A stretch of 64,000 bases of DNA from Pegea sp. RAD2-039 (lineage: Eukaryota; Chordata; Thaliacea; Salpida; Salpidae). Numbering within the stretch: position 1 is the first letter of the stretch; every line of letters starts with the position of its first letter. The translations under genes were made by a program, and so were the position numbers. Under the pieces are notes generated by a model. That model did no database searches and was not told where the DNA came from. It was given only the letters and a program-made list of their open reading frames with translations. Where the stretch lies: the NCBI GenBank assembly GCA_034620365.1, contig JAQGEQ010000170.1:62001-126000 (forward strand), given 5' to 3'. This document shows, piece after piece, positions 7,593-33,096 of the stretch.

Positions 7593-8837
7593 ATGTCTTC
7601 TGAAGAAGACTCTAACTCAAGTAGTTCAGAAGTTGACTTGCCTAAAATTGCTCAAACCTCTGAAGAAGAAATAAAAAAACAAGAGGATGAAGGAACTAAA
7701 AGAGTAATAGAGATGATTTATGAAAAACAGGAATTAGAAGCTTCAGTTTTTATGAATAAACTTAGCTTAGATGAAATTGCTTTAATACTTTTTCGTGATG
7801 ATTTAGTGACATACGATGAAGATGATAAGCCTGTTGGAAGTTACTCGGCATCAATAGAAAAAGTTCGTCGACAAGGAGAAGACCTTCTCTTTGTCAGAGT
7901 TGAACACAATGGAAAAACTAAAGACTCAAATATGGGAAATAGTCTTGAAGCATATCTTGATATGAAAACGTTACAATTGATTGAACAAAATCATTGCCAG
8001 CATTTAAAGATGAAAGGACATGAAATGAATAAAAGAATTACAATGAAATATGATCAAGAAACAGAAATCTTAGATGTAGAAAGAGAAACAGTAAAAAATA
8101 AAGTTTCAAAGACAGCTAAATGGCAGCACAAAGTAAATGCTCAATTGCTAGCCAGTGAAGGACTTAATGTCGCTCTTAAGCGTTTGATGGTCAGATACAA
8201 AGTACAAAAAGAATTTGCTTTCTATAAAGTTGATAATGACAATGGTCAATTATGTCGGGTCATTTACAAGCCATTACCATGCAGAGAACAGAATATCAAT
8301 GGACATCAAACATTTGTTAGCGGAATCGAGCGTCTTGTGGCCTCCTCTAACGATCTTCCCATGATTTGGCAAAGTTACTTTCTCCCTGATGGTCACGTGA
8401 CTATGATTGTTCAAGTTGGAGCTTCAGTTGTGAGTCAAGTAGAAGTAATGCCTAGCTTGATTGAGAGAGAAATTGTGGATCCTAAGCCCAAATTTGATAA
8501 AAAAAAGTTGATCTGGGAAGAAGATTTAGAGATGAGATCGCGATTTCTTGATCGAAAAGAAGAGTTAGAAGCAGGGCATAAAAGTTATTTAACAAGTCAT
8601 CCTGAAGTGAACGCTATTTTATCTGACTTTTTTCAACATGTGTTAATCCGTCGACCTGACAATGTTATTCATGCTGCAGCAAAATATTTTGCGTCTTTTT
8701 CACTTGACGATTGTGCTACAGACACAATCCACGAACTTGGAGAGCTAGAAACAAAAATCTCGATGACCAGCTGCACATCAGACAAACAACTTCCTAGCTA
8801 TCGGTTAGCAAGTGATAATGTTAAAGATACAACTTAA
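7593..8837 (+). CDS. CATIP: CATIP-like ciliogenesis-associated protein, single exon
   Basis: Predicted 414-residue protein. After an acidic Ser/Glu-rich start (1-45) comes a globular region with FMNKLSLDEIALILFRDDLV and VEHNGKTKDSNMGNSLEAYL. The C-terminal third has HPEVNAILSDFFQHVLIRRP, followed by a short helix, which fits the RIIa/DPY30-like dimerisation-docking fold known at the C-terminus of CATIP (C2orf62). In vertebrates CATIP binds TTC17 and promotes actin polymerisation and ciliogenesis. The assignment rests on overall architecture and remembered family motifs, not on an alignment. The gene has no intron. The ATG follows an acceptor-like TTTTTAG by 18 nt. Another protein with a docking-type C-terminus remains possible. 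Confidence 0.7.
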   Translation: MSSEEDSNSSSSEVDLPKIAQTSEEEIKKQEDEGTKRVIEMIYEKQELEASVFMNKLSLDEIALILFRDDLVTYDEDDKPVGSYSASIEKVRRQGEDLLFVRVEHNGKTKDSNMGNSLEAYLDMKTLQLIEQNHCQHLKMKGHEMNKRITMKYDQETEILDVERETVKNKVSKTAKWQHKVNAQLLASEGLNVALKRLMVRYKVQKEFAFYKVDNDNGQLCRVIYKPLPCREQNINGHQTFVSGIERLVASSNDLPMIWQSYFLPDGHVTMIVQVGASVVSQVEVMPSLIEREIVDPKPKFDKKKLIWEEDLEMRSRFLDRKEELEAGHKSYLTSHPEVNAILSDFFQHVLIRRPDNVIHAAAKYFASFSLDDCATDTIHELGELETKISMTSCTSDKQLPSYRLASDNVKDTT

Positions 8838-11800: not shown

Positions 11801-12071
11801 TTATAGCATCATTTTTAAATTTGTAATTATACATAATGTCAATCAATTATTTTATTTACTTTGTTTATTTTAAATCTTTATGAAATAGACAATTATAAAA
11901 AAAGTATAATTATCACTCATATTATTCAAATTTTTTTCAAATTAAAAATATGATGAACTGACAACTACACAATTTTCCATACTATCTAAATGTTTCATTT
12001 TAATAACATTTGGTTTTAGTACAGATCTTTTAATAATTGAAGGTTGTACATGAATCTGATAACTTTTGAAT
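8838..12071. other. Intergenic stretch, mostly featureless
   Basis: Apart from the patch at 9272-9790, listed separately, I see only A+T-rich sequence. A TTTTAG near 12013-12018 could be a splice acceptor for the following gene. A short upstream frame begins with ATG at 12050, ends after 18 codons and overlaps the next start. Confidence 0.5.
9272..9790 (+). pseudogene. Unrecognised open frame of ~170 codons broken by one TAA
   Basis: One frame is open from 9272 to the TAA at 9527-9529, and the same frame is open again for about 86 codons from 9530 to about 9789. The first half has no ATG near its beginning (it opens with TTG). The second half has a basic start (NKRRKRREVK). The patch is less A+T-biased than its surroundings. 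I recognise no domain. A decayed gene or transposon, exons of an unseen gene, or chance are all possible; the reverse strand has more stops. Confidence 0.25.
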
Positions 12072-15000
12072 ATGCAGTCAGGTCATATGATCTCTTCCCT
12101 GTTTGATGAAAGTGAACTGATACAAGCTGTTTTTAATAATGATATAAATGCTGTAAGAACAATTGTTAACTCCAAAGAAGAGGTTAATGTTAGAGGTTCA
12201 CGTTCAAGAACAGCTGCTCATGCTGCTGCTTATACAGGCAACACTGAAATTATGAAAACACTTATTCTAAGTGGAGCAGATATTGGAGTAAAAGATTCAC
12301 AATGGCTCACACCACTACATATTGCATGTGCAAAAGGGAATGAAGATGTTGTTTGCTTGTTGTTGAAAAATCAAGCTGATGTGAATGTTCGTGATAAGCA
12401 TTGGTTGTCACCTGTACATGTTGCTGCTGCTAATAACTCACTTAGTTGTGTTGAATATCTCTCTCAACATTTATCAAGCTTAAATTTTTCTGATCGAGCT
12501 GGTCATTCAGCTTTACATCATGCTACTTTAAATGGTCATAAAAAAATGGTGAATCTTTTGCTTGAACTGGGTGCTGCTGTTGGATCTTATGATAGACAGA
12601 ATCGTCGTGCTTTACATTGGGCAGCATTTGAAGGTGAAGTTGAAATTATACAAACACTTGTTGCTCATGGAGCTGATATTAATTGTAAAGATAAGCATTC
12701 AGGTAACACTCCAGCCCACGCTGCTGCCGCTGCTGGTGGTTTAATTTTTTCTATGAAAACTTTAATTGATTTTGGATATAATGTTAATACTGAAAATTTC
12801 AAGAAAAACACAGCATTGCATATAGCTTGCTTTAATGGCCATGAACAAGTTGCTCAATTACTAGTCAATGCTGGTTCTGATGTCAACAAACAGAATAAAT
12901 TCAACTGTACTCCTTTGCATTATGCTGCCATTTCTTCCCATGGTGTAAGCTGCTTAGAAATGCTTTTAAATCAAAATGCAAATGTTGACTCACAAGATAG
13001 CACTGGCAAAACCGCCCTACATCTTTCTGCCATACATGGACGATACACAAGAGCCAAAACTTTATTAGATTTCAATGCCCAAGTAGACATTGTTGATAAT
13101 AATCAGAACACTGCTTTGCATTATGCAGCTAAGTATGGTCATGAGCTACTATTACACTCTTTGTTAAACACTGGAGCAGATCCCTTTCTAAAAGGTGAAA
13201 ATGGAAGACTTCCTTTACACCTAGCTGCCCTAAATGGCCATGTAGATTGCTGTAAAAGACTTTTAACTACATTTGTTTCAATGGATAGATCTCATCAAGA
13301 TGTAATTGCCATATGTGATGAGGATCAGCGATCCAGCATTCATCATGCTGCCTGCAGTGGATCTTTAGAGTGTCTAGAGCTATTTTTTTCTTTGCTGAAT
13401 AGTTATAACTTGATTGTAGCTACTGATAAAACTGGTAGAATGCCCCTTCATTATGCTGTAGCTTCTGCAAAGAAAGATTGTACCGAGCGCCTACTAACTG
13501 AGATTTTCATTCATGAACAGTTACAAGTTGATCTTAATCTAACTGATCAGGACGGAAGATCAGCTCTACATCATGCATCAGCATCTGATGTAGATGGAGA
13601 ATGTGTTGAATTGTTGATCAGTAAAGGAGCTGATGTCCTCATCAGTGATCGATTTGGAGCAACAGCTCTTCACTATGCTTCTGCTTGTGGCCATGATTCA
13701 GTCGTCAAATTGTTAGTTCATTCAAACAATGAGCTTCTGAAGATGACTCATCTTCCTGAACAAGAGATTCCAACTCCTTTACATCTTGCTGCTTATTATG
13801 GATATGCTGATGTTGTTTTAAATCTATCTAATGAGTTAACACGAATTGATATAATCGATGTAGACATACCTGATAATCAAGGTAGAAGTCCTTTGGAGTT
13901 GGCCGTGTCCAGACTATCTGAGGATTGTGTCAAAGCCTTGGTTAGACATGGAGCCTCACCTGCGAAGAGAAATATTTACAACAACCGGACAGTTCTGCAT
14001 TCAGCCGCTTTTAGTGGAAACATCAACATAATGGAAGTGATTGTGGATAGTCTAAACTGTTTTGATGAAGATTTTAGTAAATTTATTAACGCAAAAGATG
14101 GAGATAAATGTACAGCCCTCATGTACAGTGTCACTAATGGTCACAAAGCAATTGTGGACTTTTTATTGGAAAAAAATGCCAGCTTGTGGCCAATTGACAA
14201 GTTTGGATGCACAGTTTTACACCGAGCAGCAGTATCGGCTGACGATGATATGATCGAAACTTTAATGATTCCCAACTACCAGATCAATGACCAACCAAAC
14301 CTGTTAGAAAGTTGTAAGTTAGTTGGAGCGCGAAACTTCGATGGAAGAACTGCTCTACATTTTGCAGCTATACGTGGAAACTCTGGAATATTGGAAGCGT
14401 TGCTACAATTAACTCAGACTGTGAATGTGATTGACCGATATGGGTACACGCCCCTACATTATGCGTGTCTAGAAGGTCATGAAGCATGTGTTCAATCAAT
14501 TCTAAATCATGATTCGTTCTGTGAGTTTAAAGGTTCGACATTCAGTCCTTTGCATTGCGCTGTGTTTAATGACAACGAGTCATGTGCTGAGTTACTTATA
14601 CAAATAATGGGAGAGGATATTGTTAATTTAAAAGATTGGAAAGGACGTACACCCTTACATATATGCGCTCTTACTTCTAGCCTCGATTGTACAAAGTTTT
14701 TAATAATTTTTAATGCTGATGTCGATGCTACAGATTCAAAACAACGAAGTCCTTTGATTGTAGCCGCTTATCAAGGAAGCCATTGTATCATTGAAGAGCT
14801 GTTACAGTCAAATGCAAATTACAAATTAGTGGATGAGCAGAAGAACAACATTCTTCATGTTGCATGTCTATCATCAGATTGTACAAGCGCTCAAATGATC
14901 CTTAATAGTATAGTTGCTGACCATTCATTAATTGACGCTCAAAATTGTGAAGGAAAAACTCCTCTACATATAGCAGCAAGGCAGGGACTTACAAATGTCG

Positions 15001-15344
15001 TGATGAAGTTAATTGAAGTGAATTGTTCAATTGATTTATATGACAATAATGGACTAACACCAGCCTTGGCTTGTGCCCCTACTTCAGATGTGGTAGATTG
15101 CCTTGACTTAATTCTATCTGTTATGGCAAGCAATTTAAAGAACACAACTTTAAGTAGTAGTAACAATTATTCATCTATCTTGGAAAGCTTCGAAACCTCC
15201 AAGTTGTCAACTCAAAATAATAAATCAAAAAAGAGAGTTTCTTCTATATACTTTTCTACTGCTCATTCTACATCTAAAGCTACCAACAACAGTACAACTC
15301 CTACAGAAAATGAGGCTGCTGATAGTGATTCTGAAACATTTTAA
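12072..15344 (+). CDS. ANKRD28: ANKRD28/44/52-type regulatory ankyrin-repeat subunit of protein phosphatase 6, single exon
   Basis: Predicted 1090-residue protein made almost wholly of ankyrin repeats (about 28 by family comparison). The first repeats match the family start (ELIQAVFNNDINAVR; WLTPLHIACAKGNEDVV; DRAGHSALHHATLNGH). The last block, NGLTPALACAPTSDVVDCLD, is the diagnostic C-terminal signature. In vertebrates these proteins scaffold PP6 catalytic subunit with SAPS subunits and act in ER-to-Golgi transport. After the repeats there is a Ser/Thr/Asn-rich acidic tail of about 65 residues. An upstream in-frame TTG exists at 12066; the first ATG is 12072, with a second at 12093. The family has three vertebrate paralogues, so the symbol marks the family only. 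Vertebrate orthologues have dozens of exons, whereas this gene has none. Confidence 0.93.
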   Translation: MQSGHMISSLFDESELIQAVFNNDINAVRTIVNSKEEVNVRGSRSRTAAHAAAYTGNTEIMKTLILSGADIGVKDSQWLTPLHIACAKGNEDVVCLLLKNQADVNVRDKHWLSPVHVAAANNSLSCVEYLSQHLSSLNFSDRAGHSALHHATLNGHKKMVNLLLELGAAVGSYDRQNRRALHWAAFEGEVEIIQTLVAHGADINCKDKHSGNTPAHAAAAAGGLIFSMKTLIDFGYNVNTENFKKNTALHIACFNGHEQVAQLLVNAGSDVNKQNKFNCTPLHYAAISSHGVSCLEMLLNQNANVDSQDSTGKTALHLSAIHGRYTRAKTLLDFNAQVDIVDNNQNTALHYAAKYGHELLLHSLLNTGADPFLKGENGRLPLHLAALNGHVDCCKRLLTTFVSMDRSHQDVIAICDEDQRSSIHHAACSGSLECLELFFSLLNSYNLIVATDKTGRMPLHYAVASAKKDCTERLLTEIFIHEQLQVDLNLTDQDGRSALHHASASDVDGECVELLISKGADVLISDRFGATALHYASACGHDSVVKLLVHSNNELLKMTHLPEQEIPTPLHLAAYYGYADVVLNLSNELTRIDIIDVDIPDNQGRSPLELAVSRLSEDCVKALVRHGASPAKRNIYNNRTVLHSAAFSGNINIMEVIVDSLNCFDEDFSKFINAKDGDKCTALMYSVTNGHKAIVDFLLEKNASLWPIDKFGCTVLHRAAVSADDDMIETLMIPNYQINDQPNLLESCKLVGARNFDGRTALHFAAIRGNSGILEALLQLTQTVNVIDRYGYTPLHYACLEGHEACVQSILNHDSFCEFKGSTFSPLHCAVFNDNESCAELLIQIMGEDIVNLKDWKGRTPLHICALTSSLDCTKFLIIFNADVDATDSKQRSPLIVAAYQGSHCIIEELLQSNANYKLVDEQKNNILHVACLSSDCTSAQMILNSIVADHSLIDAQNCEGKTPLHIAARQGLTNVVMKLIEVNCSIDLYDNNGLTPALACAPTSDVVDCLDLILSVMASNLKNTTLSSSNNYSSILESFETSKLSTQNNKSKKRVSSIYFSTAHSTSKATNNSTTPTENEAADSDSETF

Positions 15345-16182: not shown

Positions 16183-19100
16183 ATGGATGATGAAAGTAAG
16201 TCTCAAGTGCAACAACAAGAACTTTCTAAAAATTTAAAATTTACAGGAAAGTTAAAAAGGTATAAAATCTACGATAAATCAGAAGAGTCAAGTCTTCAGA
16301 AGATACAGAAAATGGTGGAATAATCAGTCACTCCCAAACGATGTCTTACTCATTTTCAGATATATTTGTAGGGTAACTACAGTGGGACAGCTAGTAGGAT
16401 GATGGCCAAGATGGGGTTTAAACCTGGTAAAGGTCTTGGCAAGAAAGACCAGGGTCGTGTGGATATAGTACCAGCATCTGACCAACGAGGAAGACATGGA
16501 CTTGGTCTGTCCATCAAGGTATGACCTCTGACCATCTCTTCATCTTCATAACCTCTCCCCCTGTCCAGGCACTTGATAATGAAGTCACAGTGGATTGGCG
16601 AGATAGTAGAGAACCATCAGCTGATGACCACTTCGAGTGGTTGGGACCATATAATGGTCCACAGTTAGAAGAAGATTGGTTTTCAGTTGGAAAAGTAAAT
16701 TTGTGAACTTGATCTTTCACCGATCTTAAAACTCTTCTCTAGAGGAAGAATTCTGTCAAAGATGAGACTCTTTTTGCATCTAACGAAACTATCTCAACTC
16801 TTCTTGTTTGCAAAGTGGGTCTCTTCATCCTCATCTTTTATCTGATCATCTTCTCATCTTCAGAGTATCTTCGACGGACTTGAAAGAATGGAGCTTCGAA
16901 CAGCACGATCTCGATCTAATCCTTATGAGGCTGTGAAAGGAGCAATTTTCCAAAATCGCGCCGCGATGAAGATGGCAAACATCGATTCCTCTTTTGACTT
17001 CATCTTCACTTCTCCACCGGTAAACTCCTGTTTCCATGACAACCGCTCATGACAACACTCACTTGTGCAGGATGTTTTCGACAACGAATTGATGTATTTT
17101 GCGGATGTGTGCGCGGGACCCGGAGGCTTCTCGGAGTACGTCTTATGGAGGAGAGGGTGGAAAGCGAAAGGATTCGGTTTTACTCTGAAAGGAGAAAATG
17201 ATTTCAGACTAAATGCTTTTCACTCGACTAACTCGGAGCTCTTCGAACCGCACTATGGTAACGCTTCACTGCACACCACCGCGCGAGACATCATCGTCAC
17301 GTGACAGGTGCAAATGACGATGGTGACGTCACTAATGGTCAAAACATCGAGTCGTTTGCTGACTTTGTGATGAAGAACACGAAGGAGAAAGGAGTACATC
17401 TTGTGATGGCAGATGGAGTAAGTACTCTTTGTGTGATGTGCCACCTAGTGACAGAAATACTCTGTAGGGTTTCTCAGTCGCAGGTCAAGAAAATGAGCAA
17501 GAGATCCTCACTAAGCAACTGTTGTTATGTCAATTTACTACTGCGCTCGCGATTCTTCGCGAAAATGGAAGTTTCTTGTGCAAAACCTTCGATATGTTCA
17601 CTCCTTTCACTGTGGGACTCGTTTATCTTCTTCGAATCGCCTTTCAAAAAGTCGCAGTCATGAAACCAGTCACCAGTCGTCCTGCCAACTCCGAGAGGTC
17701 GGTGCCCCTGTTCCCACATTCCACCTACTTTCATCCTCATCTTCAGATACGTGGTCTGCACCGGATTTCGTGATCATTGTCATCGACAAGTCTTTAGCTA
17801 CCTCTTCAAGATTAACGAGGAGCTGAATGATTTAAAAGGATCAGATGAAGACATTCTGGATGTTGTTCCAAATGAAGTTCTCTTCGAAGACTCAGATTTT
17901 GTCAATTACGTTACAAACCTCAACAAACAGTCAGTTGCTCCTTGAATCGTCCAATCACAGACTTAGTTGAGATTTTCAGGATTGCTGATGAACAGTGCAA
18001 GGCGCTGGCTAAAGTTCACGACTTTGTCAAGGACAAGTAAGGTGCCCCTGACTTTCTTTCACGCCTCATTTGATCAATCTCTTCATCTTCAGAAGTCTAA
18101 GGGAAGATTGCCAAAGTGATGTAAGAAAGATGTGTCTTGAGAAATGGAAGATTCCGGATCAGATGCGGAAGGAACCACCACTAAAACATCCCAACATCTT
18201 CTTCCAGGAGCTAATCCCTCGCCAGTTTGAGATCAACTTCTTAAAACGATCCAAGAAATTAATAAGGAGCAATCTTTGTGATCTCAATCGCATCTTCAAC
18301 TTCAGATGCTATCCAGCCGGAAGTCCCAGTACCACTCTTCTCATCAGCAGAGGAGTAAGTCCTCATCCTCATCTTTTACTGATCCTCATCTTTTACTGAT
18401 CCTCATCTTTTACTGATCCTCATCTTTTACTGATCCTCATTTTTTACTGATCCTCATTTTTTACTGATCCTTATCAGCGGAGAAATGTCTCTCTGTGGGA
18501 TTTATCTTTAAGTAAATGGAGGCCTCAAGGCGAGTTTGACATCAAATGTGAGCTTCCGTACGGGACTGTCCTCGAAGTTGAGATCGTCAAAGAACTGAAA
18601 GGAGAGGTTTGTAGTCCACTTGTGGCTGTGCCGAAAGTTGATGTTTGTTGGATCAGGGCAAAGGTCAGCACCGGCAAAACGTGGTCCATGTTGTAGATGC
18701 CCTGACCATTGCTGGACAAGATGTGACCCAGAAGCACTTCACAGAAAGGTTTGGTTCAATTAATGTTGAGTTGTTTTAATGGTTGTGTCCAGGGTCAGAT
18801 TGGCGGACTTGCTAGTGACCGCTTGCCACAGAAGTACCCGGAAAGACCTAACATTGGTCCGGATCAAACCGATTTTCTGCGTTGAAGAGATTGAGACGAT
18901 ATTTGAAAGGTGATAATGATGGTCTTCCAGTGGATTTTGATATTTTATATGATTCAGGTTGACCCTGAAACGGGTAAAAGGGAGCAACTGGTTCGAACCC
19001 CAACCTTGTTATCAAACTCCAGGGTCAGATTCATTCACATTTGCTCCCACTGGTATTCAATTCATCAAAATTTCAAAAGGTTCCTCTTATCTTCATCACT

Positions 19101-21097: not shown

Positions 21098-22994
21098 TTA
21101 TTTTTTATCTGAGGTAGCCTGTCTTTGTTTGGAAGTTCGACTTCTAGCATATATCCTTAAAAATAAAGCCAAGAAAATTATAAAAATTCCACAGAAGCCG
21201 GGAATAGATATAGGATGTCCATAGATCACACAAGAAAGTAGGATTGCGAACGCTTGCCGAAGAGTCATGATGATGGTGAAGACTACTGCTCCAAACTGTG
21301 AAATTGTGAAGAAGATAAAGAGCTGACCAGCTGCAGAACAAAGCTGTAAAAAAATAATTTGAAAAGTTGAAGTGTAAAAGTGAAGTTGAGAAACGAACCG
21401 ATAAAATGACAGTGTGGACAGCAAATTCCGAATGACGAAACATAAAAGCAGAAGCTTCCAAAAAGCCTCCTTGTTCCAATAGTGAGATTGCTGTGAAGAT
21501 GCAAGAGAAGAGATTAACCCCAAACATCATTTGTGTTGATGACATGTGATGTACTTTGAAGAGTTCGCCCTGAAATCAACACAAGTGATGAGAAAATGAT
21601 CTCAACAAGATGGAATCAAACCTGCCAGTTAGATGTGAAGCTATCAAACATCATGTAACCAATCATCAAAATAAATCCGGAAAATATCACAATCCCATTC
21701 CCATAAACCTCCTCTACTACGTCACTACTTGAACTGTCCACGTGATCACCTCCTTGACCCAGCAGGAAAAAGCTGATTCCCACAGATAACATGGCGGCAG
21801 TGAGCCATTCGTACATTTGGTATTTGTTCCCCGAAACAATTTTCCCCATAAACATCACAGGAATCACTTTACAAGCTTTACCGAGAACCTGATATAAAAC
21901 AGAAGGCTTAAACAGGATTTGATGATGGAAACATTTAAACATAAAGTGCTTAATGTTGTCCCACGCAAATGTAGTTGAAAAGTGACGTGTCAACTTTGAG
22001 AAAAGCCGGTTACACGAGAAGCTCGTTTGTTTAACTATTGGACGCTTGAGGCGTAGTTTGAAGAAGTGTTGTATAGCTCGTCGTAAAATAATTTGAAAAA
22101 TGAATTTTGTATTGACTGAGTTGTACAAAAGAATAGTTGAAATAGAAGGCGTTACCTCAACAGGTGATTGATAAAAAAGAGAATTGAACCTGAGTTGGAA
22201 AACTGACGAATTTGAGGGCTTCGTATTGAAACCAGCTGCTCATAATGTTCGAAAATGAAGCATATGAGAATTTGTACAAGGGGCAACTATGGCGAGGTTG
22301 TTTTGATGATAAAATTACAGCTCCTGATACTACAAAGGCTAAAAGTCTACAAAATTAATGAGTGAATAAGTTGCTTCAGAAATTGATGAATAACCTGTTG
22401 ACAAAAACAAGGAATTGGGAGTTTTGGAACTTCTCTCCTCCAATTCCAGCAGCTGATCCATACTTTCGAGTCATGATTCGTTCTTGGATCAGTCCCCAAG
22501 TCAAATAGGAAACCTGAAAAAATATAAATGATTCTGATCTCTTAGTGATCTTCATTAAATTATTTGACATCTGAACAACCTGAAGACCAATTGCACAAAT
22601 CAGCAGGACACAGCCTTTCTTCTTCCCAGATGATATTGAGGAAGATTTTTCAGTCAATTGAAGATCAATATCATTGTTTCCAATCACACAAGCTTTTAAA
22701 CAGGAAAAGCACCCTCCTCTGGCTACAATTGAAAATTATTGATTAACTTAGTGAAGATGATTAAAGATTTTGAAACAAACCTTTTTTAATTTTTTCGGAT
22801 TTTTTCAAATAGCTTATAAGTACATATGATGGTATACCAACACTTGCGTAACAAAATACATTTAAAATAAGACGGAATAGCCAAAAATCATTCCATACTC
22901 TAGCTGGTAATGTTGTAGGTACAGGAGGTGCTTTTGTGTAGATAAATAAAGATAATAAAAAGGTTCCAAACAATAAAAATCTCAATGCTAACAT
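21098..22994 (-). CDS. SLC35B2: SLC35B2, Golgi PAPS transporter (PAPST1/slalom type)
   Basis: Seven exons on the minus strand, from the 5' end: 22994-22781, 22722-22580, 22513-22395, 22346-22190, 21888-21622, 21569-21399, 21343-21098; 438 residues (human 432). The protein imports 3'-phosphoadenosine-5'-phosphosulfate into the Golgi lumen for sulfation of glycans and proteins. It is rich in transmembrane helices. Family blocks include [77 protein letters not shown] and [20 protein letters not shown]. The frame is also open 12 codons upstream, but that begins with GTG; the ATG at 22994 gives the family-like hydrophobic N-terminus. An acceptor-like AATTTAG lies 11 nt before it. Introns are 48-66 nt apart from one of 301 nt. 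Confidence 0.95.
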
Positions 22995-25568: not shown

Positions 25569-28453
25569 ATGGAAGAAGACACATTCTCAATTCTTGTTGG
25601 TTAGTTTTGGTTGTTAGTAGATCTAAAAGCATTTTTTTAATGGATAAATTGACTAATTACTTGATTGCTTCTTTTTTCTCAGAAATATTTTGATCAATTT
25701 TTTTTTCAAACTTAAGCTACAGATATTCATCTGGGGTATGGAGAAAAGAAGCCTGAACTTTGTTCAGACTCTTTCACAGCTTTTGAGGAGATTCTACAAA
25801 TTGCCAAAAAAAGGTAAACATTTTTATGATGATAATTTTTTAAAGTATTTTTATAAAATTATTGAATTTTAGTCAAATAAATTAAAAGTTGAATGAAATC
25901 TTTTCACAGAAATGTGGATTTTATTTTATTGGGAGGTGATCTTTTCCACGAGAATAAACCTTCCCGAAAGACACGCCATGCCACCATTGAATTGTTGAAG
26001 AAGTATTGCTTTGGAGACCGGCCTTGTGAATTTGAAATTGTTAGTGATCAAATTGAGAATTTTGGGAAGTCCTCTAAAATGTAAGCTCTTCCAACATCTA
26101 AGACACAACTTAAAACTTCCTATTCATCTCTCAGAATCAAACATGTCAACTACGAAGACCCCAACATTAACATTTCTATTCCCGTCTTTTCTATCCATGG
26201 CAACCATGATGATCCAACCGGGGTCTGACATTTGCTTCATATATGTGACGTCATTTGATGATGTCATCTTTGTTGTTTCATAGTCAGATGAACTAAGTGC
26301 GATTGACCTTCTTGGTGCTTACGGGTTGATCAATCATTTTGGAAAACAAACTAATTTAGAGCATTTAAAGATCTCACCTGTGCTGATGGTAAAAGGAAAG
26401 ACCAAGTTGGCTTTATACGGTTTAGGTGTGGAGATGTTTTGACGTCAAATTAGAAATGAAAAGAACTTTTTGTAGGCTCAATGAAAGATGAAAGACTTCA
26501 TCGGCTCTTCCTCCGAAAGCAGGTGACGATGATTCGTCCGAAAGAGTTTACAGATGAGTGGTTGAATGTGATGGTGATCCATCAAAATCGGTAATCCCTC
26601 CTTCCCTTGCATCCACTTCTTGATCTTGTTGATCTTGCAGAGTCAGCCACTCTCGCACAAATTACATTCCAGAAGAGTTTCTTGATGATTTTCTTGATCT
26701 TGTGATCTGGGGACATGAGCATGAATGCTTGATTCAACCTCAGCTAAATGTGTCCCGAAACTTTCTAGTGATGCAACCAGGAAGTTCTGTTGCTACATCT
26801 TTGTGCGAAGGGGAAGCTGAGCAAAAGTAAATCCTCCCGATCTTCTTAAAGTCCTAACTGATCTCTTGCATTTTCTAGAAAAGTTGCTATATTGAAAATC
26901 AGAGGTCGTGAAATGAAAGTGGATATCATTCCACTTCAGACAGTTAGACAGATGTACGTGGAGACGATCTTCCTGGAAGATGAGCTGGATGCTCGCAAGT
27001 ATCCACTCCTAGATCAGCGTCTTTCAGTTGTAAAGAGCTTCTTGGAACAAAAAGTTGAAGACTTGCTCTCAAGAGCGAATTCCGAAAGATCAGGAAACGA
27101 GAAGCAGCCAAAGAAGCCTCTGATCCGACTCCGAGTGAGCTCTCTAGAGTTTGATCAGCTCTAGATCAGATTAGATCCTTTGATGCAGATCAATTATGGG
27201 GAAAATTTTGAAACTTTCCCCACTTACCAATTTGGGGCAACTTTTAGCGATCGGGTGGCAAATCCAGATTCCATCATCCACTTCTTAAAGAAGTCCGCTT
27301 GTAAGAAGTCGAGAGGTGAGTATGATGATGATCTGATCTTTCGTGACGTCATCTTCACAGGATCGAATCAATCTCATTCGGGAGCGGGTGAAGATCTAGT
27401 TGGAACAAATGTGGAAAAGTTGGAACAAGTTGAAGATTTTGTGAAAGAATTTTTGAATTCAAAAGGCGAAGTAAGAAATGTCTTCATCATTTGATCTTCA
27501 TCTTCATTTATATCCTTATAATTTGATCTTCATCTCATTTGTGTCCTCATCTAAGGATCAGCTTTCGCTCCTCACTACCAAAGGGCTCAATTCTGCTTTG
27601 TCTGAATTTGTTTACAAACAAGAAAAGGAATCAGTCAGCGAGATGTGTAATCATCAAATCACTCGCATCCAGAAGTCCCTGAATCTGGTGAGCATCAAAA
27701 GATCTGATCGCTGATTGGTTGATTTATCTTCTATTTGTAGTCAGATGTTGAACGTTCATCTGTAGCTGTCAGAGAGGAAGTAGTTCAAGTTCGAAATGAG
27801 ATCCTCTTCAAAAACCATGAAGATCAAATTGAAGAAGTAAAAAAGGAATCCGCGAAGAATATTTCAAAAATGGATGAAGAGTCCTCTGCATCAGATGATG
27901 GAATATCTTCAATGGCTCCTTCTTCTCAATCAACCAGAATCTCTTCAAGGTAAAGATCAGTTCTTGGCTTCAAAGATACTGAAAGATAATCTTCAGAGGA
28001 AGAGGAGCTAAAAGAGGATCCAGAAAAGGAACAACGCGAGGAAGAGGAAGATCAACTCGAGGCAAACCGACTTCCAACAACGAAAGTGATCTCACAGGTA
28101 TGTCATTTGCATCTTCATCTTTTGATCCCATCTTCTTTTCAGCTTATTTTACAAGCTCACAAACCAGCTCGACAAAATCTAGAAATCCGATTCGGAAGAC
28201 ACAGAGCCGATGCGATGAGTCTTCATCAGTATTTGATACAATCCCAGAAACTGATTGCTCCACGCTCCAATACGAGTCTCAAGAAGTGGGATCATCGATG
28301 AAGAAAAGATCGAAGAGCATTCTGGCTGATTTATCGTCCAGTGACGTCAGTAACTGCTTAGTGTTTCCAACTAACTTTTTTACAAATCTTCTTCTTTTTC
28401 AGGATGCGGATGAAGAGCCTTTTACTTTTATGTTGAAGAAGAGACAAAAGTGA
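25569..28453 (+). CDS. MRE11: MRE11, double-strand-break repair nuclease
   Basis: Fifteen exons: 25569-25599, 25717-25813, 25910-26080, 26135-26222, 26284-26425, 26476-26590, 26641-26826, 26879-27134, 27189-27315, 27361-27470, 27556-27687, 27741-27949, 27997-28097, 28143-28345, 28403-28453; 672 residues (human 708). MRE11 is the nuclease of the MRN complex with RAD50 and NBS1. The phosphodiesterase motifs are in order: [45 protein letters not shown] and WGHEHEC, so metal-binding Asp, His and Asn residues look intact. The DNA-binding cap contains [20 protein letters not shown]-like sequence. A Gly/Arg-rich segment near the C-terminus ([19 protein letters not shown]) matches the GAR motif. Exons 1-3 are A+T-rich with introns of 117 and 96 nt; later introns are mostly 45-60 nt and several contain TGACGTCA. 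Confidence 0.97.
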
Positions 28454-30218: not shown

Positions 30219-33096
30219 ATGATAATAGATATCGGGATTCTAGTTGCTATCTGCATCTTGGCAGTTGAACTAATTATAATAGTCATTGTAGTCGTGTACA
30301 TCATGAAGATTGGACGAAAGAGGAAAGCAGGCAAGATGTCTAAGATCAGATCTTTTGTTTTGAGGATTTATTTAAGCGTTTTGATTATTCAACTTTCAGA
30401 AAAGAGAAAAATTGAAGCAAAAATGATGAAGGAAAACGAAGAAGCAGAAAAGGAAGAGGCAGAAAAAGAAAAAGAAAAAGAAGAAACAGAAGAAGAAGAA
30501 GACAAAAGAGCTGAAGATGGTCAGATCAGTTTTTCGATGTTAAAAATAAGTTAAATAGTTTTTATTTTATCTAGAAGCTGATTCAAGCCACATAACTGTT
30601 GCTGTAGAAGATGAAGCTGAAGTAAATTAAAGGAATAAATAATTTGTATAATTTGAAGAAGTAACTTACACAAACAACAACAAAACCATTCATTTCTAAA
30701 CATTTATCTTAAAACAAATAAACTTTGTTGAGTTTAAACAAATACATTTGACTTAATTTTAGAATAAAGTTGCTGATGAGGACATCTGTGAAGAAGTTAA
30801 TTCAGAAAAAAGTAAAGATGCAGCTGAAGATGATAAAAACCCACCAGCAGATCTTCCTGAAAAGGATCCAAAAGATCCCGATGATACAGTTAAAGATACA
30901 GAAAATGAGAGCGTTCCAATTTATGAAAATTATCAACCAAAAAAGGAAGAATCAGAAAATGAAGAGGACAAAAAGGAGGTAAAGGAAGTTGACATAAATG
31001 AGGATAAAGAAATTAAAAACGATGAAGAAAAAGGAGCCGAAGAAAGTGAAGGGAAAGAAGATGATGAGAAAGTTGAAAATAAAATTCTTGAATCACAAGA
31101 AGAACTTCAGTTATCGGTGAAAATCTTGACAGAAAAACTTGAAATTTTAACTGCATCTCAGTCGACGCTAAACTCAGCTGCAAGTTTGTTTTAATTTCAA
31201 TTTTTTTTTGTCAAAAATGTTTCGAATTTTAAAACTTTTTTTTGTCACAATTTATAAAAAAATCAACTTGTAAAAACGAAAAAATACAAGATGGATATTT
31301 CAAGGAAAATTTTGTCAATTCTATTTTTACAGCGCCTTTAAATCGAAGTATTTTACTCAATAAAGAACAAGAACCAACAACAGCAAGTGAAGTACCTCCA
31401 AAAAAGTCTTCTCACAGATCTAACTCATCAAATGATCAGCTGGAAGTGATTCGAAAAGTTGAAAACATTGCAGATATGTTTCCACCCAAAAATCAGGTAA
31501 TAGATCATCGGAACCGGCTGAAATGGAATCCAAATTTAGAGTTATTCAAAAAACTGAAGTAATTTTTAGTAAATGAAACTTTATTTTGAACTTTAGGAGC
31601 CCGAAGAACCCGAAGAAGTATTTTATCCGACCGAAGAAGGTGAACCTGCTGTTGCTGGTGTAGTCAACGTCACCACTGGTGAAAAACTGAATGTTTGTCA
31701 AGCTGCCAACAAAGGTTTGATCCCAAAACGCACCGCTCTTTTGCTACTGGAGGCTCAAGCAGCTACTGGTTGTGTGGTGAGCCCCAAAAATGGGGTAAAA
31801 ATGGCAGTTTTGGACGCGATTGAAAGCGGGTTGGTTGATCCTGGATACAAAAAGGGTCTGATAGCAGCTGAAGGAGCTTATTATGGATATTTGGATCCTC
31901 GTAATCAGGAACAAATCACTTTAAATGAAGCCGTGAAGCGAGGAATCTTTCCAAGACCCCATGGAATCCGGTTGTTGGAGTTCCAGGTCGCTACAGGAGG
32001 TGTGATTGATCCTTGGAGCGGAAATAGATACAGGATCGAGTACGCAATGGAGATGGGATTGATTGATGAAGAGACTGCTCGTGATCTTGATCATGTCAAT
32101 GACGAAGCCAACTTCTTTGATCCAAGCGCTCAGACACATTTGGGATACGCGGATTTATTACGTAAATGTGTCCGAGACATTGACACCGGTCTTAAGTTCC
32201 TCTACGTCGAAGAGAAGCATTCAGCGGGACACAATCGATATCAACCTGATCTTTTAACCTTCAGGAGCGCTTTCAGGAAGAAAGTGACTCTTCAAGAGCT
32301 GATCCAAGCTGGGATTGTGGAAGAAAAGTCTTTTAAAGCTCTTCAACAAGGATTGATCAGCAAAGAAGATCTGAGAGACCGTTTACATCCATATCTGATT
32401 GGTGAAGATCCAATTGCAGGAGTTCTAAACAAGACAACCAACAAAGTGATGTCGATCTCACAAGCAGTTACTGAGGGTCTTTTGAGGAGGAACACCGCCC
32501 TCGAGTTACTCGAAGCTCAAGCTGCTACTGGGAATATCATTGATCCATTATCAGGGAAGAAGATGTCCGTGAAAAGAGCTGTTAAGGAGGGAGTGGTCTT
32601 GCCTCAATTTGCCCCTGCCCTGCAACGAGCTGAGCAAGCTGTCAGTGGCTATTTGGACTGTGTCAGCGGTCAGACTATTTCATTATATGAAGCAATCCGG
32701 AAAGGTGTTGTGATTGAGATACACGGGATTCGACTACTGGATGCTCAATTTGCAACTGGAGGACTAATCGATCCAGAGGCTGGTTACAGGATCCCTGCAT
32801 CAGTAGCGTTAGAGAGGAAGTTATTAGATCAACGATTAGCAGAGATTCTGACAAATAAACGAAATGATATGGGACTAAAAGGATATTATGATCCTAATTC
32901 AGGTGATGATGACTTTATCATTTATCTTAATCAATTAATTTTCATTTATTTAGGTGGAAATTTAACTTACTCAGAATTGATGACAACTTGTATCCGAAGC
33001 AGAAAGCATCACTCATTTCCGCTGCTTCCGATGCGTCAAAAGACTCCTGTAACGTCAACATACCGATCTAGGTCCAAAGGTCGTCATATTTACTGA
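30219..33096 (+). CDS. Membrane-anchored plectin-repeat protein (short plakin-like)
   Basis: Seven exons: 30219-30330, 30400-30519, 30575-30621, 30763-31183, 31333-31496, 31597-32902, 32954-33096; 770 residues, phases consistent. Residues 5-29 form one very hydrophobic helix followed by KIGRKRK, a typical signal-anchor with cytosolic basic flank. A Glu/Lys-rich, probably coiled or disordered region runs to about 300. Then come two plectin-repeat domains: one with LLLLEAQAATGCVVSP, YYGYLDPRN, GIRLLEFQVATGGVIDP and LLRKCVRDIDTGLKFL; a second with LELLEAQAATGNIIDP, VSGYLDC and GIRLLDAQFATGGLIDP. The C-terminus is Arg/Ser/Lys-rich, as in desmoplakin and plectin. In those proteins the repeats bind intermediate filaments. 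There is no plakin, spectrin or actin-binding domain. Inference: a membrane tether for filaments. Intron 1 would be GC-AG (69 nt, a multiple of three); without splicing the frame stays open. Two merged genes remain possible. Confidence 0.85.

Follow-up and report, generated by a model that had tools for sequence, protein, structure and literature searches.

The 64,000 nucleotides of the Pegea sp. RAD2-039 genome analyzed here (C25:62001-126000; referred to as the window) carry a seven-exon gene whose 770-residue product joins one N-terminal hydrophobic helix to a long acidic linker and two plectin-repeat domains. This architecture is well supported from the DNA alone and is strengthened by its family context, since the gene is one of at least four membrane-anchored plectin-repeat genes in this tunicate. 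We propose (probability, roughly 0.65) that the product is a single-pass protein that tethers cytoplasmic intermediate filaments to a membrane, with the plasma membrane in epidermal cells as the most likely site.

Structure of the plectin-repeat gene

Joining splice sites wherever their phases fit gave an unbroken 770-residue protein from seven exons (30219-33096, plus strand; Table 1). The splice phases (i.e., 1, 1, 0, 1, 0, and 1, in order) are mutually consistent, in agreement with an earlier note on this DNA, which had read the exons as one short gene. The main open frame (31597-33096; 499 codons) matched the Pfam plectin repeat (2e-75), and six plectin-repeat stretches (PF00681; 1.7e-73) were recovered in the full model; the two repeat domains that the note described are present. 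The N-terminal anchor and the acidic region before the repeats, both claimed there, were also found. The hydrophobic helix (residues about 5 to 29, with a single Glu at residue 17) has a 19-residue mean hydropathy of 3.5 and is followed by KIGRKRK; with one such helix and a positive inner flank, the protein is predicted from the hydropathy scan to be a single-pass membrane protein. Residues 37 to 290 contain 23% Glu, 9% Asp, and 13% Lys (net charge, -43), and this linker is probably disordered. A match to DUF4834 over the helix and the acidic part (21.6 bits) was below the cut-off of 27.8 and was taken as compositional.

Table 1. Coordinates of the plectin-repeat gene (window positions) and of Ser-rich frames at two further plectin-repeat loci
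Feature	Position	Strand	Description
Exon 1	30219..30330	+	Start codon, hydrophobic helix, KIGRKRK; phase-1 end; same exon type at three other loci
Intron 1	30331..30399	+	GC-AG, 69 nt
Exon 2	30400..30519	+	Acidic segment, Lys/Glu-rich
Exon 3	30575..30621	+	Encodes EADSSHITVAVEDEAE
Exon 4	30763..31183	+	Acidic, probably disordered; Leu-rich stretch at its end
Exon 5	31333..31496	+	Linker end
Exon 6	31597..32902	+	Bulk of both plectin-repeat domains
Plectin-repeat domain 1	31636..32202	+	Protein residues 302-490
Plectin-repeat domain 2	32401..32902	+	Core from residue 557; end in exon 7
Exon 7	32954..33096	+	Domain 2 end, short Arg/Ser-bearing tail, stop codon
AATAAA	33150..33155	+	Likely polyadenylation signal, 53 bases past the stop codon
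Ser-rich frames (C258)	L010 7551-8670, 3-1001	-
Ser-rich frame (C85)	L009 2-1837	+

Intron 1 is stop-free and in frame, so that its retention, which is possible, would keep the reading frame too. An intron at the same place and in the same phase has GT-AG ends in L010, L011, and L012. GC-AG introns were seen in two plectin-repeat genes (L011 5822, minus strand; window 30331). The segment encoded by exon 3 (EADSSHITVAVEDEAE) resembles NITFEDETNQAE of the gene on contig C21, a likeness judged by eye only.

A codon-usage statistic for which four further open frames of the window served as the training set favors the model frame over the other two frames in exons 2 to 6 and is weak in exon 7 (0.08 in frame versus 0.14 on the reverse strand). 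Exon 1 scored 0.19 in frame and 0.21 in another frame, and the best of 23 noncoding ATG frames of its length reached 0.24. Since these scores leave exon 1 undecided, its assignment rests on paralogues, and the linkage between the helix and the repeat exons was sought in the rest of the genome.

An MRE11 gene (25893-28453, plus strand; Mre11_DNA_bind by Pfam) lies directly upstream of the plectin-repeat gene, and no plakin or spectrin exons were found there; a late frame of the MRE11 gene is rich in RGR-like motifs. The window also holds the ciliogenesis-associated gene CATIP, whose Pfam domain falls within one open frame (7593-8834, plus strand), and a single ankyrin-repeat open frame of 1,093 codons (12063-15344, plus strand), which is intronless, though short introns abound in the genome.

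Plectin-repeat and plakin genes elsewhere in the genome

A PF00681 profile search of the AT-rich genome (105.7 Mb in 387 contigs; 28.8% G+C over 224 kb counted) returned at least 19 matches at five loci (i.e., the window and contigs C21, C177, C258, and C85); the counts are lower bounds, and a weaker C258 repeat (24.7 bits) lies outside that list. The C85 locus is 92 to 97% identical to the C258 locus over four blastn pieces spanning the C85 repeat exons. Its contig begins inside a Ser-rich exon, and the 5' end of the gene is cut off. At both of these loci, C258 and C85, the Ser-rich frames contain a repeated unit of poly-Ser and EDESLKEVEEVEIKEVE. We modeled the exons of the C21, C177, and C258 genes by hand; for C177 and C258, the 3' part of the model is incomplete. 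In all three genes, the first exon encodes an initial Met, a hydrophobic stretch, and then a basic cluster and ends in phase 1, like that of the window gene; the architecture described in the earlier note is thus present at three further loci. A hydrophobic first exon with a phase-1 intron therefore precedes the plectin-repeat exons at four of the five loci, the fifth (C85) lacking an assembled 5' end.

The rarity of this arrangement was gauged by scanning 234 kb (10 stretches, both strands) for a hydrophobic stretch, a basic cluster, and a phase-1 donor; because the pattern was built after the cases were known and its donor list includes the C258 donor, the scan is a measure of rarity and not a blind test. 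At a mean hydropathy of at least 2.0, there were four matches, and all were the four first exons on the right strand (for C177, the match printed the inner GCAAGA rather than the modeled GTAAGT donor, both in phase 1). Relaxing the threshold to 1.6 gave five matches, the extra one at window position 17370, and raising it to 2.3 left three, with C21 lost. A looser scan without the phase condition overlooked the C21 helix, the weakest of the four, and also matched a gene on C177 (L015) and one at window position 21268. Between the window and C258, the helices could be aligned gap-free, with one Glu inside each, and their score was reached by 5 of 2,000 core shuffles (0.0025). The values for the other five pairs were 0.0165, 0.038, 0.282, 1.0, and 1.0, i.e., clear similarity in one of six pairs. 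Position and phase thus speak for the common descent of the helix exons more than the letters do.

Only Plectin exceeded the Pfam cut-off in the 770-residue model; the plakin domain, spectrin repeats, SH3_10, and the actin-binding CH and GAS2 domains were all absent above it. As judged from its domain content, the predicted protein would not be classed as a plakin or spectraplakin cytolinker. Such parts occur elsewhere in the genome. GAS2 gave three matches, on C262 and C194, and C262 carries spectrin-like, EF-hand-like, and GAS2 exons in succession (GAS2 by profile, the others by reading of frames); the single SH3_10 match in the genome is on C66 (27.2 bits; cut-off, 22.8). The genome-wide PF00681 search found no plectin repeat on C262, C194, or C66.

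These observations bear on two other readings of the gene. It is very unlikely that exon 1 is part of another small gene and that the plectin-repeat gene starts further in: codon statistics are undecided there and the junction to exon 2 needs a GC-AG intron, but an exon of the same kind, place, and phase is found wherever the 5' end is assembled (four of four loci). Even less weight, close to none, falls to the view that scaffold exons further 5' make the gene the end of a large plakin. Such proteins do usually carry their plectin repeats at the C-terminus; however, MRE11 and not a plakin scaffold adjoins the 5' side of the window gene, in keeping with the earlier note's reading of a protein without the large scaffold, zinc-finger-like frames (by reading) lie upstream of the C258 gene, and the contigs with spectraplakin-like exons and SH3_10 (C262 and C66) gave no plectin-repeat match in the PF00681 search. 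One short gene beginning with the helix exon is the reading retained below.

Acceptor-like sites directly 5' of the start codons scored well in the C177 and C21 genes and no better than background in the window and C258 genes; as two of the four were at background level, these sites were dropped as evidence of trans-splicing. The 16-nt Ciona spliced leader has 272 exact copies in the genome (149 and 123 by strand; reversed control, 0). A tandem array on C4 (L048; C4:1135044-1142217) has a unit of about 200 bp, and one sampled stretch contains two leader copies 200 bp apart, each followed by GTAAGT. The same leader is described in the accessible part of a report on Ciona intestinalis with a 264-bp unit (PMC7986045). 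The leader marks the genome as that of a tunicate, and the different unit length makes a species other than C. intestinalis probable. A rotifer source was rejected: the lamin-like gene on C29 ends in a CaaX motif, whereas CaaX lamins were absent from the rotifers sampled in PMC10125929; the rotifer lamin ends given in that paper did not turn up beside the filament genes examined; and the bdelloid spliced leader does not occur, even allowing one mismatch. The idea of a rotifer-type intracytoplasmic lamina was dropped along with it. A search for COX1 gave no match in the genome.

Plectin-repeat domains and intermediate-filament genes

The five solved chains matched by sequence were those of desmoplakin (5dzz, 1.2e-112; 1lm7, 2.5e-53; and 1lm5), plectin (2n03), and envoplakin (4qmd), and the tandem repeats of the window protein are predicted to form plectin-repeat domain (PRD) folds. 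Six domains were compared (two from the window, one each from C21 and C177, and two from C258, whose third, more divergent domain was left out), and all six were closest to desmoplakin 1lm7 (41 to 57% identity), which is PRD-B according to the available portion of PMC4726743. Window domains 1 and 2 share 41% and 46% identity with it, the closest among four compared. The structure model of domain 2 (mean pLDDT, 74.8) had 5dzz (1.9e-16) and 1lm7 (2.4e-16) as its best fold matches and matched six chains of five PRD entries at an E value of 3e-10 or better; nothing outside those entries appeared at 0.001. A first model, built from two rows over 434 aa, reached a pLDDT of 53.3 and, being poor, was left out of the fold search. 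Searches for relatives of domain 2 confirmed none of 33 pattern matches in the genome contig collection and none of 63 in viral contigs (three-row alignment), and an NCBIfam search with two proteins gave no match.

Six envoplakin groove residues (R1876, R1895, K1901, R1914, R1952, and K1994) are reported to serve vimentin binding in the accessible text of PMC4782060. Of these charges, two of six are kept in each window domain and in C258 domain 2, and three of six in C21, C177, and C258 domain 1; the references keep four (desmoplakin 1lm7) or all six (desmoplakin 1lm5 and plectin 2n03). Net charge is -6 in window domain 1 and +5 in domain 2 and says little, since 1lm7 itself is at -10. As described in the available part of PMC4726743, vimentin binding is weak for a desmoplakin PRD on its own and improves in constructs that include the B-C linker; neither this linker nor a C-type domain, which that paper links to stronger binding, was seen in the window protein. 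The window domains would probably bind filaments, weakly per domain, and clustering in the membrane could supply the binding strength.

Candidate partners are encoded in the same genome. The 19 matches to PF00038 fall at six places, spread over five contigs (C21, C44, C8, C1 [two], and C29), which by reading comprise five cytoplasmic intermediate-filament gene places and one gene, on C29, that looks lamin-like. The last frame of the latter (L034; C29:1054000-1063999, minus strand) ends in CIIM, a CaaX motif. Annexin coding sequence lies at most 2 kb downstream of a C1 filament gene (L035 3740-7998, plus strand) on the same strand (Pfam, 3e-16), making this locus a probable intermediate filament-annexin fusion. 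The filament part recurs, inverted, about 20 kb away (L036; C1:3470000-3479999); annexin was checked in L035 only. A unique fusion of this kind was reportedly found in Ciona (Karabinos, 2004). That fusion, too, points to a direct link between filaments and membranes in tunicates, but its domains are unrelated to those of the window protein and its annexin part sits on the filament protein itself.

Proposed membrane attachment and comparison with known plakins

In the proposed mechanism, the short N-terminus would face the lumen or the outside and the plectin-repeat domains the cytosol, the latter because of the basic cluster just inside the helix. The long acidic, probably disordered tether would bear two B-type domains which, weak singly and clustered in the membrane, would jointly grip the rod of cytoplasmic intermediate filaments. 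The filament network would thus be held at the membrane without actin-binding, plakin, or cadherin-linked parts.

Two alternatives concern what is held, and where. A possible but less probable reading keeps the membrane protein and moves it to the endoplasmic reticulum or nuclear envelope, or to the mitochondrial outer membrane, so that filaments would be tied to an organelle. Plectin 1b does reside at the mitochondrial outer membrane. Dystonin-a2 sits at nuclear and perinuclear membranes through its transmembrane domain (PMC3352338, accessible part), and the window helix is preceded by only about four residues and, by eye, lacks a cleavable signal peptide. However, a helix this hydrophobic fits the secretory route, as does the signal-peptide-like start ahead of the C177 helix (by reading), which would place the C177 repeats in the cytosol. 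That the domains now serve as a scaffold at the membrane for some partner different from intermediate filaments is more doubtful still. The sparsely kept groove charges and the negative charge of domain 1 would suit such a role, but domain 2 is positively charged while desmoplakin 1lm7 is strongly negative, the genome holds several intermediate-filament genes, and both the fold match and the 41 to 46% identity point to a desmoplakin fragment described as filament binding. Attachment of filaments to the plasma membrane remains our preferred reading.

The window protein shares the domain fold and sequence of desmoplakin PRD-A/B (5dzz) and PRD-B (1lm7), but it is without the plakin domain, and a membrane helix takes the place of the adaptor-mediated attachment of desmoplakin. 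In vertebrates, plectin-repeat domains reach membranes via large linkers and adaptor proteins. Epiplakin is likewise a plectin-repeat protein without a plakin scaffold, but its repeat domains are numerous and it is not known to have a membrane anchor. The earlier note had held that plakins lack such an anchor; this is not supported in that form, because the plakin-family protein dystonin-a2 (BPAG1a2) has a transmembrane domain near its N-terminus (PMC3352338), as in the window protein, within a large spectraplakin that, unlike the window protein, has actin- and microtubule-binding parts. A membrane anchor on a plakin therefore has a precedent in print. In a literature search that left most subscription journals outside, no paper listed had a title or displayed abstract on a membrane-anchored plectin-repeat family. 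To our knowledge, dystonin a isoforms carry no plectin repeats, and tunicates have no vertebrate-type desmosomes. Plectin repeats are described in spectraplakins and plakins, with membrane-anchored forms unmentioned, in the available portion of PMC9145010, and five echinoderms have none of these repeats according to that of PMC7351957.

There is perhaps an even chance that the spectraplakin lost its plectin repeats in this tunicate lineage and that the repeats survive only on single-pass membrane proteins, which would tie intermediate filaments directly to the membrane, independently of desmosomes and hemidesmosomes. Compared with the known membrane-anchored plakin isoform, the protein described here is a short plectin-repeat protein with its own helix and no large linker. 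If the family is real, filament-membrane coupling would be possible in one step, with the helix within the same short chain. It would tell how keratins are anchored in a close vertebrate relative and would provide a natural construct of minimal size in which to learn how weak contacts between PRDs and filaments sum at a membrane. Additionally, a repeat-bearing spectraplakin could then no longer be assumed wherever a genome encodes plectin repeats.
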